A stretch of DNA of 33,931 nt from Terriglobia bacterium (lineage in GTDB: Bacteria; Acidobacteriota; Terriglobia; 20CM-2-55-15): assembly GCA_036496425.1 (NCBI GenBank), contig DASXLG010000291.1:1-33931 (forward strand), written 5' to 3'. A program made the translations under genes and the position numbers. The notes below the pieces were generated by a model. The model had not been told where the DNA came from and did not search any database. It saw nothing but the letters and a program-made list of their open reading frames with translations. Shown piece after piece: positions 11,542 through 31,036 of this stretch (position 1 is the first letter of the stretch; each line of letters begins with the position of its first letter).

Positions 11542-11615
11542 CGGAAGATTAAGAAGCACAAGAAGCACAAGAAAAGGACGCCTTTTCTTGTGCCTCTTGT
11601 GCTTCTTGTGTTCCG
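11542..11615. repeat. Palindromic repeat, family A copy 1
   Basis: Left arm from about 11551 and right arm from 11581 pair over 27 nt with one G-U, around a 3-nt loop (ACG, 11578-11580). The arms are tandem 9-nt units related to CACAAGAAG. It is the only A copy between tandem genes (lpdA and lipA), and its end touches the lipA promoter region. Confidence 0.92.
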
Positions 11616-11622
11616 TCCCCTG

Positions 11623-11635: not shown

Positions 11636-12502
11636 ATGAGCAACCGTCCGGACTGGCTGAAAGTACGAATTCCCGGCGGCGACAATTACATGGAGGTCCG
11701 CCGCATCCTCCGCTCGCACAAGCTCAACACCATTTGTGAGGACGCGATGTGTCCGAACATCGCGGAATGCTGGGGCAAGCACCGGACCGCTACTTTCATG
11801 ATCCTCGGCGATATCTGCACGCGCGCCTGCGCCTTCTGCGCCGTCACCAGCGGAAAACCCACGGAACTCGATTTGTTGGAGCCGGGTAGAGTGGCGGCTG
11901 CAATCGCCGATCTCAAACTGAAGCACGCCGTGATCACTTCCGTCGATCGCGATGATCTCCGGGATGGCGGCGCCTCGATCTTCGCCGAAACAGTCCGCCA
12001 GATTCGGCGGCTCGACTCCAATGTGAAGGTCGAACTGCTCACGCCGGATTTTCAAGGTTCACTCGATTCCGTGCGAACGATTATCGATGCTCGGCCGGAT
12101 ATTTTCTCCCACAACGTCGAGACGGTGCGCCGGTTGTACCCCGGAATCCGTTTCAAGTCCGATTACACGACGTCGTTTGGATTGTTGAAGTCCGCAAAGG
12201 AAATGAATCCGCTGATCTTCATTAAGACCGGCATCATGCTTGGACTCGGCGAGGAGAAAGAGGAAATTCTCGAGCTGTTACACCATGCCGTCGATGCCGG
12301 TGTTGATATTCTGACAATCGGGCAATACTTGCGGCCCTCTATGAAGCATGCCGAAATCAAGAAGTATTACCATCCCGATGAATTCGCCGAACTCGGGCGT
12401 ATTGGGCGCACCCTCGGCATTCGTTGGGTTTTCTCAGGTCCGCTCGTCCGCAGTTCCTATCACGCCGAGGACGTCTTCGATCAAATGATGGCGCAGCCGT
12501 AG
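11636..12502 (+). CDS. lipA: Lipoyl synthase
   Basis: A 288-residue radical-SAM enzyme that inserts two sulfurs into protein-bound octanoyl groups to make lipoyl cofactor for the 2-oxoacid dehydrogenases served by LpdA. The auxiliary cluster cysteines are Cys34, Cys39 and Cys45 (CEDAMCPNIAEC). The radical-SAM CxxxCxxC is Cys61, Cys65 and Cys68 (CTRACAFC). The C-terminal RSSYHAED supplies the serine that ligates the auxiliary cluster. A longer frame opens upstream, but it only translates the family A repeat, so the ATG at 11636 (MSNRPDWLKVRIPGGDNY) is chosen. The stop TAG lies in the outer arm of repeat A copy 2. Confidence 0.96.
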   Translation: MSNRPDWLKVRIPGGDNYMEVRRILRSHKLNTICEDAMCPNIAECWGKHRTATFMILGDICTRACAFCAVTSGKPTELDLLEPGRVAAAIADLKLKHAVITSVDRDDLRDGGASIFAETVRQIRRLDSNVKVELLTPDFQGSLDSVRTIIDARPDIFSHNVETVRRLYPGIRFKSDYTTSFGLLKSAKEMNPLIFIKTGIMLGLGEEKEEILELLHHAVDAGVDILTIGQYLRPSMKHAEIKKYYHPDEFAELGRIGRTLGIRWVFSGPLVRSSYHAEDVFDQMMAQP

Positions 12503-12594
12503 AGGCGAAGAAAAAAGGAACACAAGAAGCACAAGAGGCACAAGAAAGGTGTCCCTCTCTTGTGCTTCTTGTGTTCCGTTTTTCTTCCCCTCTA
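12500..12594. repeat. Palindromic repeat, family A copy 2, a probable bidirectional terminator
   Basis: The core stem of 21 bp (GGAACACAAGAAGCACAAGAG, from 12517) is extended outward by GAAGAAAAA against TTTTTCTTC and finally by TAGAGG against CCTCTA. Those last six bases hold the lipA stop and, on the other strand, the VOC gene stop. On both strands the core hairpin is followed by a T-rich run (GTTTTTCTTC on +, TTTTTTCTTC on -), the form of a two-way intrinsic terminator between convergent genes. Confidence 0.92.
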
Positions 12595-13596
12595 CAAGTT
12601 CGGGTCCGCGCTTCCCACAAGCTCAAGATTGAGCCCGTTGGGATCTTTGACGAAAACGTTGCGGATGGTATCGCTCCACTCCACGAGTTCTGCATTGCGC
12701 GACAGCACGCGCCCGTTATTCTGTTTGATCTTCGCAAGCAACTCCCGGATGTGTCCGATACGGAGCGCCATGCCGGAGGCGTTGGGGTCGGTGACGCGAA
12801 GATCGAATGCTTTTCGCGGCACGCCTTTGATTTCGATCATCTCGATGCGGGCTTTGCTGCCGGAGATCAGTCCGCCGGCCGTGCGATAAGACGCCGCTTT
12901 CGGCAGTCCCATCAGATCGAGCGTCGCCTGGTCATTGGAGAATGATTTGTCGGCCTGCAGGTCAAGGCCGAGAATGCCGTTCCAGTATTTGAGAGTCTCG
13001 TCCACGTCCCGAACCGTCAGCGCCATGATCGCGCCGATCACGGGGCCCTGAGGTGAATCGGGGGCAGGCGTTCCCTGAATCGCCTCGACGAAGTAGCCGT
13101 CCGGATCGCGCATGATGATGGCCCTGGTCTTACCGATCGACGTTTGAACCATCACCGGTTCGCCGCCCTTCGTGATAATCGGAGCGTTCTCTTTTTTCGC
13201 CGCCGCCACGATGGAATCGAGGTCGCGGACAATGATCTTCATCATCGGCGCGCCCGGGTCCGCGATATCCGGCCGCTGGTTCAGCGTTCTTTCGATGTTG
13301 CCGAACTGCGTCAACTCGAAGCTGAAGGCGCCGCTCAGTTGCGTCATGGCGACCTGCAAGGTGGCGCCGGGCGAGTTCGTCAGAATCTGCGGGCCTGTGC
13401 TCTGAAACGGGGCCACGCGGCCGTTCACACTGAAAACTGCCTGATAAAACGCGAGCGTTTTGGCGGCATCGTTCACCGAATGAATGGCGTGCATCAAACC
13501 GATCACGCCGGTCTTGTTGGTCGGATTGGGCACCGGCGCCTGAGCGCTGGCAAGAACGCTGGCAACTAGAACGGACGCGGCGGCAAGAACACGCAT
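12592..13596 (-). CDS. Secreted two-domain VOC (glyoxalase/bleomycin-resistance fold) protein
   Basis: 334 residues with an N-terminal signal peptide (MRVLAAASVLVASVLASAQA), so probably periplasmic. Two VOC domains follow, at about 25-165 and 180-330. The first keeps a candidate metal pair: His in LMHAIHSV and Glu in GYFVEAI. The second starts IMALTVRDVDETLKYW without the first His but ends LNLELV. Substrate unknown; VOC proteins include dioxygenases, isomerases and binding proteins. AAGGAG lies 6 nt before the ATG. It is a full-length, diverged paralogue of the gene at 19266-20285. Confidence 0.85.
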   Translation of the reverse strand: MRVLAAASVLVASVLASAQAPVPNPTNKTGVIGLMHAIHSVNDAAKTLAFYQAVFSVNGRVAPFQSTGPQILTNSPGATLQVAMTQLSGAFSFELTQFGNIERTLNQRPDIADPGAPMMKIIVRDLDSIVAAAKKENAPIITKGGEPVMVQTSIGKTRAIIMRDPDGYFVEAIQGTPAPDSPQGPVIGAIMALTVRDVDETLKYWNGILGLDLQADKSFSNDQATLDLMGLPKAASYRTAGGLISGSKARIEMIEIKGVPRKAFDLRVTDPNASGMALRIGHIRELLAKIKQNNGRVLSRNAELVEWSDTIRNVFVKDPNGLNLELVGSADPNL

Positions 13597-13658: not shown

Positions 13659-13753
13659 GTTTAGCCGCAGATGACGCGGATGACGCAGATGGGGCGCCTC
13701 ATCAGTAGTTTTTTGCGCCACATCTGCGTCATCCGCGTCCTCTGCGGCTAAAC
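13659..13753. repeat. Palindromic repeat, family B copy 1
   Basis: Arms of 39 nt match with two mismatches, beginning GTTTAGCCGCAGATGACGCG on the left with the complement ending at 13753; the loop is about 17 nt. The arm is tandem 9-nt units related to CGCAGATGA. It lies in the divergent region between the VOC gene (-) and a small membrane protein gene (+). Confidence 0.93.
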
Positions 13754-16322: not shown

Positions 16323-17051
16323 ATGCCGAAACGCGCTCTCGCATTCGCGATACTTTCCATCTTCGTTCTGGCAGGTATTGAATCGTCGGCGTTCGCTGCG
16401 CTACAGGATCAGAACGCCGAGCTCGCCGGAATAATAACGGATGCTTTCAGCACAGATTTGCCCGCTGTGGCTGTGACAGCGACGAATTTAGAAACCGCGG
16501 TTAGGCGCGTCACGCTGACAAACTCCGGCGGTATCTACCGGTTTCGGAGCATCGTGCCCGGCAAATACAGATTGAGCGCAACCCTTCCGGGGTTCCGGCC
16601 GCGCGTCTACAACTCGGTGTCGTTGGCCTTGTCGCAACATGCTCAGCTCCATTTCGCGCTACTGCCAAGTCCGGATTCGTCGCCTCTGCCGGAGACTTCG
16701 GACGCTCCCGCCGTTTTGCAGGAACTTCAGCCACAGTTGTTTGCGGAGCCCGCTCCGTCGTCATCTCCTCGCATTCGTGTCGCCGGTTCCGACATGGATG
16801 AAAGACTCGTTGGCCGTGTTCCACCGATTTATCCCGTAGAGGCCAGGGCCGCGCGCATCGTTGGTGCCGTTATCCTTGAAGTGGAAGTGTCGAGCGGCGG
16901 AATCGTCGGCAACGTCCGTATTGTTTCGGGAAATCCTCTTTTGAGACAGGCGGCGATTGAAGCCGTCAAACGGCGGTTCTATCGCCCGGTGATGCTCAAC
17001 GGTAATCCTGTTGACGTCATCACAACCGTGACAGTGAACGTTCCGGAGTGA
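16323..17051 (+). CDS. Exported carboxypeptidase-regulatory-like / TonB C-terminal domain protein
   Basis: 242 residues. A hydrophobic export signal or anchor lies at about 5-25 (ALAFAILSIFVLAGIESSAFA). An Ig-like carboxypeptidase-regulatory domain follows at about 30-115 (GIITDAFSTDLPAVAVTATN, then GGIYRFRSIVPGKYRLSATLPGF). After a Pro/Ser-rich linker comes a TonB_C domain at about 155-242 (PPIYPVEARAARIVGAVILEVEV and AAIEAVKRRFYRPVMLNGNPV). TonB_C normally delivers energy to outer-membrane transporters, but the classic Pro/Lys periplasm-spanning region is missing. The ATG at 16323 follows GGAG by 6 nt. A role with TonB-dependent carboxypeptidase-regulatory outer-membrane proteins is inference. 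Confidence 0.82.
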   Translation: MPKRALAFAILSIFVLAGIESSAFAALQDQNAELAGIITDAFSTDLPAVAVTATNLETAVRRVTLTNSGGIYRFRSIVPGKYRLSATLPGFRPRVYNSVSLALSQHAQLHFALLPSPDSSPLPETSDAPAVLQELQPQLFAEPAPSSSPRIRVAGSDMDERLVGRVPPIYPVEARAARIVGAVILEVEVSSGGIVGNVRIVSGNPLLRQAAIEAVKRRFYRPVMLNGNPVDVITTVTVNVPE

Positions 17052-17064
17052 CCGCTTCGACGGG

Positions 17065-17158
17065 GAAAGGGCGGGAAGGAACACAAGAAGCACAAAAGGC
17101 ACAAGAAAGACCTGTCGCCCTTGTGCCTTTTGTGCTTCTTGTGGTTCCTTCCCCTTTC
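17065..17158. repeat. Palindromic repeat, family A copy 3
   Basis: Inner arms of about 31 nt (GAAGGAAC, a one-base bulge, then ACAAGAAGCACAAAAGGCAC) pair around a loop of about 15 nt, and GAAAGGG/CCCTTTC extends the stem. It separates the convergent TonB_C and OsmC-like genes; its right end touches the OsmC-like stop codon. Confidence 0.92.
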
Positions 17159-17633
17159 AGTGGCCGGGATCGATCCGCCATGATGACGTGATCTGTATCG
17201 CGGCCCGCAGGCTGCGGTACACCGGGCATTTGTCGATATAGAAGCCGTGGACGCGTTCCACCGTTTCGCGATTGGTTTCCGGGGTCCGCAAAGTGAAGTA
17301 CGCATGAATACGGCGGATGACGAGCACGCCGTCCTCTGTTTCGATTTCCCCTCTGACGTCCGCGGACAGCAGCCCGCCTCCGGCATCGATTTTGCGCGCT
17401 TCCAGCGCGCCCCCGAAGGTTCCGAGCATTCAGCCGGCGGCTGCGGCCACGACATAATCGATCGTGGCCGCATGAGGCTCCGTGATCTGGCTCTCGTCGA
17501 TGCCGTAGTGCTTTGCAATCGCGCCGTGAACGCTGAACCTGACAAGCTGCTCTTCGCCAGGCAGCTTCGCGATTCGCAGCGGGCCCTTCTGTCGCTCGAG
17601 CCAGATGTTTGAAACATACACGATGGGTGACAT
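17157..17633 (-). CDS. OsmC-like peroxiredoxin, candidate selenoprotein (in-frame TGA read as Sec)
   Basis: Read through one TGA at 17430-17432, the frame gives 158 residues with the full OsmC-like pattern: HAATIDYVVAAAAG, then the TGA at position 68, then MLGTFGGALEARKI, VLVIRRIHAYFTL and VERVHGFYIDKCPVYRS. OsmC-family peroxidases reduce organic hydroperoxides with two cysteines. The second is Cys136 in DKCPV; the first normally stands exactly where the TGA is. Selenocysteine replacing this cysteine is known for some OsmC-like proteins. No frameshift is needed, because both halves share one frame. A hairpin suited to a SECIS follows the TGA. Alternatives are a nonsense mutation or a sequencing error. 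It begins 36 nt after the upstream hypothetical gene on the same strand. Confidence 0.75.
17394..17410 (-). promoter_or_regulatory. Candidate bacterial SECIS hairpin
   Basis: On the minus strand GCGCGCT (17410-17404) pairs perfectly with AGCGCGC (17400-17394) around a GGA loop. The first loop G is the 27th base after the TGA. Bacterial SECIS elements are hairpins just downstream of UGA with G in the first loop positions, so sequence, spacing and loop all fit. GC-rich coding DNA can form such hairpins by chance. Confidence 0.6.
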
Positions 17634-17669
17634 GCTTCCATCATACGCGTCCGCGTTATGAAGGGCAGT

Positions 17670-19126: not shown

Positions 19127-19233
19127 AAGAAGTTTTAGCCGCAGATGGCGCGGATGACGTAGATGGAGCGAAAAAAAGGACTTATGATGCGCCCTATCTG
19201 CGTCATCCGCGTCATCTGCGGCTAAAACTTCTT
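19127..19233. repeat. Palindromic repeat, family B copy 2
   Basis: Arms of about 45 nt begin AAGAAGTTTTAGCCGCAGAT and end with the complement at 19233. They pair with a few mismatches around a loop of about 20 nt. The 9-nt units (CGCAGATGA, CGCGGATGA) match copy 1 at 13659-13753. It fills the divergent gap between the SDR (-) and VOC (+) genes. Confidence 0.93.
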
Positions 19234-20301: not shown

Positions 20302-20398
20302 GGGAACGGAACACAAAAGGACACAAGAAGCGGGGTTCGCAAAACCCATTTTCTTGTGCTTCTTGTGTTTTGTTTGCGCTTTTTGTGCTCCGCTCCCT
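20302..20398. repeat. Palindromic repeat, family A copy 4 (diverged)
   Basis: GGGAACGGAACACAAAAGG on the left pairs imperfectly with the right arm ending GCTCCGCTCCC. ACACAAGAAGC pairs with GCTTCTTGTGT inside, and the right arm carries an extra segment of about 10 nt. It lies between the convergent VOC and M13 genes. Confidence 0.85.
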
Positions 20399-30997: not shown

Positions 30998-31036
30998 CTG
31001 ATCTTGTGTCTCTTGTGCTCCTTGTGTTCCGGTTCC
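30938..31036. repeat. Palindromic repeat, family A copy 5
   Basis: The left arm (AACACAAGAAGCACAA onwards, about 30945) pairs imperfectly with the right arm ending CTTGTGTTCCGGTTCCC at 31037. The left arm has diverged more and contains the end of the MFS gene; the right end abuts the recR stop. It sits between convergent genes. Confidence 0.85.

Follow-up and report, generated by a model that had tools for sequence, protein, structure and literature searches.

An OsmC-like gene of Terriglobia with a conserved in-frame UGA that probably encodes selenocysteine, and its relatives in Acidobacteriota and Chloroflexota

Introduction

Does the in-frame TGA that parts two minus-strand reading frames in a Terriglobia genome end one protein, or does it specify the catalytic residue of a single, longer one? 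The question is raised by the locus studied here, which lies in the window, by which we mean the whole 33,931-nucleotide stretch of DNA that was analysed (contig DASXLG010000291.1 of assembly GCA_036496425.1). A first-pass annotation made from the letters alone had joined the two frames into an OsmC-like protein and proposed that the UGA is decoded as selenocysteine (Sec), noting that OsmC-like selenoproteins had been reported from environmental sequence data. The literature agrees with that statement: three such sequences with the motif UxxT were described from the Sargasso Sea metagenome (PMC1088965) and five from the GOS metagenome (PMC2398784), and OsmC-like selenoproteins appear in recent reviews (PMC9312934, PMC13188914). 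Since these proteins have been known since 2005, the kind as such is not new. Selenoproteins are easily missed in annotation, where UGA is taken as a stop. On comparative sequence evidence, the product of this gene is predicted to have the OsmC fold, and its codon 68 very probably specifies Sec.

A single reading frame with a TGA at the first catalytic position

The gene occupies positions 17157-17633 on the minus strand and runs in one frame from its ATG through the internal TGA to a terminal TGA (17157-17159, minus), which ends the selenoprotein frame; with the internal codon read as U, the product has 158 residues. The part upstream of this codon (17433..17633, minus; residues 1-67) is kept across relatives, with few non-synonymous changes between relative pairs, and the part downstream (17157..17429, minus; residues 69-158) is traversed by the match to the Pfam OsmC model and is under purifying selection in relatives. 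The match itself (PF02566) spans residues 59-150 with an E-value of 1.5e-11 and a score of 45.1 bits, well over the cut-off of 27.5, placing the product in the OsmC superfamily; together with the translation, it upholds the earlier claim that two same-frame minus-strand ORFs parted by one TGA (17430-17432) jointly make a 158-residue OsmC-like protein.

Translated through the UGA (17430..17432, minus), the putative Sec stands in the context ...VVAAAAG-U68-MLGTFGGAL...DKCPVYRS.... In an alignment of the family profile with solved structures, U68 matches the Cys of AAHAGCF, the first catalytic one of Thermus OsmC (1ukk), and C136 matches the second, that of EGCPVSR. The TGA does stand, as first proposed, at the first conserved Cys of the fold, and the Cys of DKCPVYRS, encoded at 17226..17228 on the minus strand, is the second, resolving one, forming with P137 an invariant C136-P137 column. 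The redox-Cys homologues at the UGA column are 1ukk, by its first Cys, and a natural homologue in which the codon is TGC (locus L104). Across 39 aligned family members the invariant residues are R20, H36, D59, U68, G71, T72, C136 and P137, among which R20 and D59 may, we presume, match the Arg and Glu near the catalytic Cys of Ohr. The family motif can be written U[ML]xGT, with a G at +3 and a T at +4 from the Sec, both invariant in the same 39 members.

A search of the window's own assembly with PF02566 recovered four OsmC genes, and the gene at 17157-17633 is the sole one with an internal TGA. One paralogue from the same genome (L009) has a Cys at the corresponding place, in ...GACTSMT..., and its second Cys in ...EHCPVHRTL, the classical two-Cys arrangement. 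An ORF of 221 codons in another frame of the minus strand (16979-17644) overlies both the selenoprotein gene and the repeat that follows it; a Pfam search of this ORF returned zero matches and we take it as spurious, and it could be chosen by a gene caller over the true selenoprotein gene.

Conservation of the TGA among relatives

With relatives in the phylum sample counted at an E-value of 1e-8 or better, 32 of 396 Acidobacteriota genomes (about 8%) carry a match; there are 33 matches in all, each with a single internal TGA. In the sample from Chloroflexota, the phylum of a SAR202 match, 38 of 400 genomes (about 9%) have a match. The TGA lies at the identical codon in 67/67 UGA-containing copies extracted from the two phyla, a set that takes in the window gene; relatives with a TGA at the same codon, which the first-pass annotation had named as something to look for, are found in both. 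An in-frame TGA in 33/33 phylum relatives, in the same column across 67 loci, is far beyond chance. Among named records, MAGs of Acidobacteriota give the best matches (63-67% identity); other matches, at about 52-53%, come from a SAR202 cluster bacterium and from an uncultured member of the Chloroflexi.

In relatives the gene is under purifying selection to either side of the TGA: among ungapped relative pairs the ratio of non-synonymous to synonymous changes is 0.0-0.35 before the UGA and 0.04-0.25 after it, the L029/L030 pair being left out of the downstream comparison on account of an indel. The site-spanning relatives that lack the TGA number only two, L104 (genome G779), with TGC for Cys, and L105 (genome G703), with TGG for Trp. 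The N-terminus of L105 is disrupted, for which reason we regard this copy as perhaps an error or a decaying gene. In L104 the hairpin described below is broken (GCGCUGAUCGCCCGC), and tRNA-Sec is still present in the genome. In a quick FastTree tree with midpoint rooting, L104 is nested within Sec sequences, adjoining L103 with a support of 0.93, so that for this one case the tree points to Sec to Cys as the likely direction of change.

A SECIS-like hairpin downstream of the UGA

The RNAalifold consensus of the region following the UGA contains a hairpin resembling a bacterial SECIS element (bSECIS; 17394..17410, minus), with a 6-bp stem of GCGCGC paired to GCGCGC and an apical loop UGGAA. Its arms occupy alignment columns 23-28 and 34-39, equivalent to window positions 17410-17405 and 17399-17394, and the stem begins 19 nt past the UGA, the loop following that codon at a distance of 25 nt. 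These dimensions (6 bp, UGGAA, 25 nt) fit the bacterial SECIS model of PMC13188914, which specifies a stem of 4-16 bp, a loop of 3-9 nt with a G in its first two positions, and a distance of 16-37 nt from the UGA.

The sequence after the UGA aligns across all relatives without a gap. Over 38 distinct sequences, 94.7% of stem cells are paired and 13 cells have both partners changed, where shuffles give 2.9; when slid registers of the hairpin were tested on the same 38 sequences, none approached the common one. At the common register the stem is weaker in two loci, L047 and L050. The compensatory exchanges are of the types C-G/U-A and G-C/A-U, with a further C-G version in L108, and they can be followed at the level of codons. 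GTG (Val) at codon 79 goes with GCA at codon 76 in 10 of 11 cases; L040 and L051 have GTG at codon 76 and GCA at codon 79; and L110, from the other phylum, shows the same exchange of codon-79 GTG with codon-76 GCA again. Such exchanges are telling because they tie synonymous and non-synonymous sites together. Codon choice in the hairpin is restricted, with Leu77 encoded by CTG in 40/40 loci, compared with 43% of Leu codons elsewhere in the same genes, and Ala76 by GCG or GCA in 36/36 and never by GCC or GCT, which make up 56% of Ala codons elsewhere.

Sec decoding genes in the genome

The genome of the window encodes the machinery that Sec insertion would call for. A tRNA-Sec was found both with Rfam (68.5 bits) and by ARAGORN (tRNA-SeC, anticodon TCA), alongside SelA (527 bits), SelB (378 bits) and SelD (364 bits), completing the set of sel genes for which the first-pass annotation had suggested a search. 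The SelD gene (G000:C219:2750-3670; L024, L073) has an in-frame TGA of its own, within ...YARSAGUAGKLGPG..., and judged from this sequence SelD is itself a probable selenoprotein, as would be expected if Sec decoding works in this genome. A SelD with Sec at that place is well known. The assembly is a draft of 407 contigs with 4.2% estimated contamination; contamination of the bin is an unlikely source of the sel genes, the GC content of their contigs (55-57%) being close to the 57.5% of the window and the neighbours of selD, ParB-like and ATP-synthase-like genes named by eye from their translations, being ordinary chromosomal ones.

Of the 32 genomes in the phylum sample that carry the gene, 30 have a clear tRNA-Sec; of the 364 that lack the gene, 208 do (Fisher p 1.6e-5, genomes treated as independent). 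In the two remaining genomes with the gene, G116 and G253, tRNA-Sec was not found at the cut-off and the candidate matches were tRNA-Ser; because both have SelA, we suspect that their tRNA-Sec may lie in assembly gaps.

Alternatives to Sec decoding

Three other readings of the internal UGA have to be weighed against these data. Were the codon a nonsense mutation or an assembly error, the locus would be a pseudogene or would conceal a miscalled TGC or TGT, and the fragmentation of the source genome into 407 contigs might be held in favour of this. The same TGA is, however, shared by 67 loci of two phyla, from many genomes that were each assembled independently, which leads us to reject this reading, and the purifying selection that flanks the codon in both directions and the conserved hairpin leave it scarcely any credit. 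Translation might instead stop at the UGA and restart at an adjoining ATG (TGAATG), giving two proteins, and an ATG does directly follow the TGA in 18 of 40 loci, the window gene among them. In the other 22 the TGA is followed by CTG, CTA or CTC, which are not usual start codons, and it is this CTN in over half of the relatives that decides against a restart. Such a product boundary would, moreover, fall inside one continuous predicted helix of the OsmC fold (residues 57-78), and the second Cys is meaningful only jointly with the first catalytic position, so we hold the two-protein reading to be very improbable.

The presence of UGA in a conserved gene would equally be explained by a genome-wide reassignment of the codon, for example to Trp or Gly. 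Against this, the gene itself ends in UGA at a length near that of relatives ending in TAA or TAG, and the only relative that has a sense codon here in an unbroken frame (L104) encodes Cys; we reject reassignment on these two grounds, and with a dedicated tRNA-Sec and SelA, SelB and SelD encoded in the genome it is exceedingly unlikely. Decoding of the UGA as Sec, as originally put forward, is thus the reading supported at the sequence level by the conserved TGA, the sel genes and the SECIS-like hairpin with its compensatory changes.

Predicted fold and function

AlphaFold2, run with the family alignment, returned a model with a mean pLDDT of 95.3 and a pTM of 0.87, in which a long central helix (residues 57-78) runs unbroken through residue 68. 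Foldseek and VIA-align gave full-length matches to OsmC and Ohr proteins, with VIA Z scores of 14.6 for 2onf, 13.9 for 1ml8, 12.9 for 1ukk and 12.4 for Pseudomonas aeruginosa Ohr (1n2f), and the model is a confident prediction of the OsmC/Ohr fold. The two-Cys OsmC/Ohr peroxidases (1ukk, 1qwi, 1n2f, 2onf) share this fold with the window protein (VIA Z 12-15) as well as both catalytic positions; they differ from it in having Cys where the first position is here very probably Sec, and in sequence, with an identity of about 9-18%.

These observations suggest a model where SelB and charged tRNA-Sec would decode UGA codon 68 as selenocysteine, insertion being directed by the hairpin whose stem lies 19 nt past the codon, and where Sec68, in the long central helix, would replace the peroxidatic Cys of OsmC/Ohr, with Cys136 as the resolving residue. 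By analogy with the OsmC/Ohr family, Sec68 would reduce a hydroperoxide, a Se-S bond would then form between Sec68 and Cys136, and a cellular thiol would re-reduce the enzyme. On the same analogy, the protein is probably a hydroperoxide reductase, an assignment that we make with some reserve. The inserted Sec might alternatively act on another thiol or selenol substrate, such as a disulfide or a persulfide, a proposal that bears on the functional half of the interpretation only and that we consider possible though tentative. In keeping with it, the window protein scores far under the cut-offs of the OsmC model (15.2 bits vs 85.8) and of the SACOL1771 model (12.4 vs 166) and has no match to the Ohr model TIGR03561, and no conserved gene neighbour or operon partner that might name the reductant was seen by eye at the seven loci with flanks. 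The retention of both catalytic positions and of the predicted OsmC/Ohr fold weighs on the other side, in favour of hydroperoxide reduction.

Relation to known OsmC-like selenoproteins

The protein resembles the marine OsmC-like selenoproteins in its membership of the OsmC superfamily (COG1765/PF02566), in having Sec for the redox Cys and in the bacterial SECIS element downstream. It differs from them in the motif as printed: the marine proteins have UxxT, with T at +3, whereas here G is at +3 and T at +4. The NCBIfam model NF041052 (OsmC_like_Se, OsmC-related (seleno)protein) belongs to the same Pfam superfamily and is likewise named as Sec-containing, but the window protein scores 11.8 bits, far short of the 95 that the model requires, and the best E-value among 39 lineage members is 1.1e-6; the lineage therefore appears to lie beyond existing models. 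The SelD of the same genome, although also UGA-containing, is part of the Sec machinery and not an OsmC protein. In the literature searched, coverage of which was partial, we found no paper that assigns an OsmC selenoprotein to Acidobacteriota or to Chloroflexota.

From these sequence comparisons, the relatives look like a second OsmC lineage outside current models, with Sec in nearly every member. We consider it reasonably probable that Acidobacteriota and Chloroflexota share a separate OsmC lineage that is almost always Sec-containing, is covered by no model and would tend to be split or missed by gene callers; the Cys forms would be rare and derived, as the position of L104 inside the Sec sequences suggests, and Sec would then be the rule and not a sporadic substitution. 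A new family model would recover OsmC-type selenoproteins from soil and aquatic bacteria, and a clade in which Sec is nearly universal and the Cys form rare and derived offers a natural test of the benefit of Sec over Cys.

Other features of the window

Imperfect intergenic palindromes of AAGAAGCACAAGAGGCACAAG / CTTGTGCCTCTTGTGCTTCTTGTG occur at 17073-17152, 11551-11620, 12499-12595, 20305-20397 and 31003-31026, five matches at three or fewer mismatches where none is expected, and the copy at 17073-17152 lies directly 3' of the selenoprotein gene. A second intergenic palindromic repeat (TTTAGCCGCAGATGACGCGGATGACGCAGATG...) is present in two copies, at 13659-13753 and 19127-19233, that are 88% alike over 93 nt, and a tRNA-Ser (GGA) gene lies at the contig end (33813-33900, minus).
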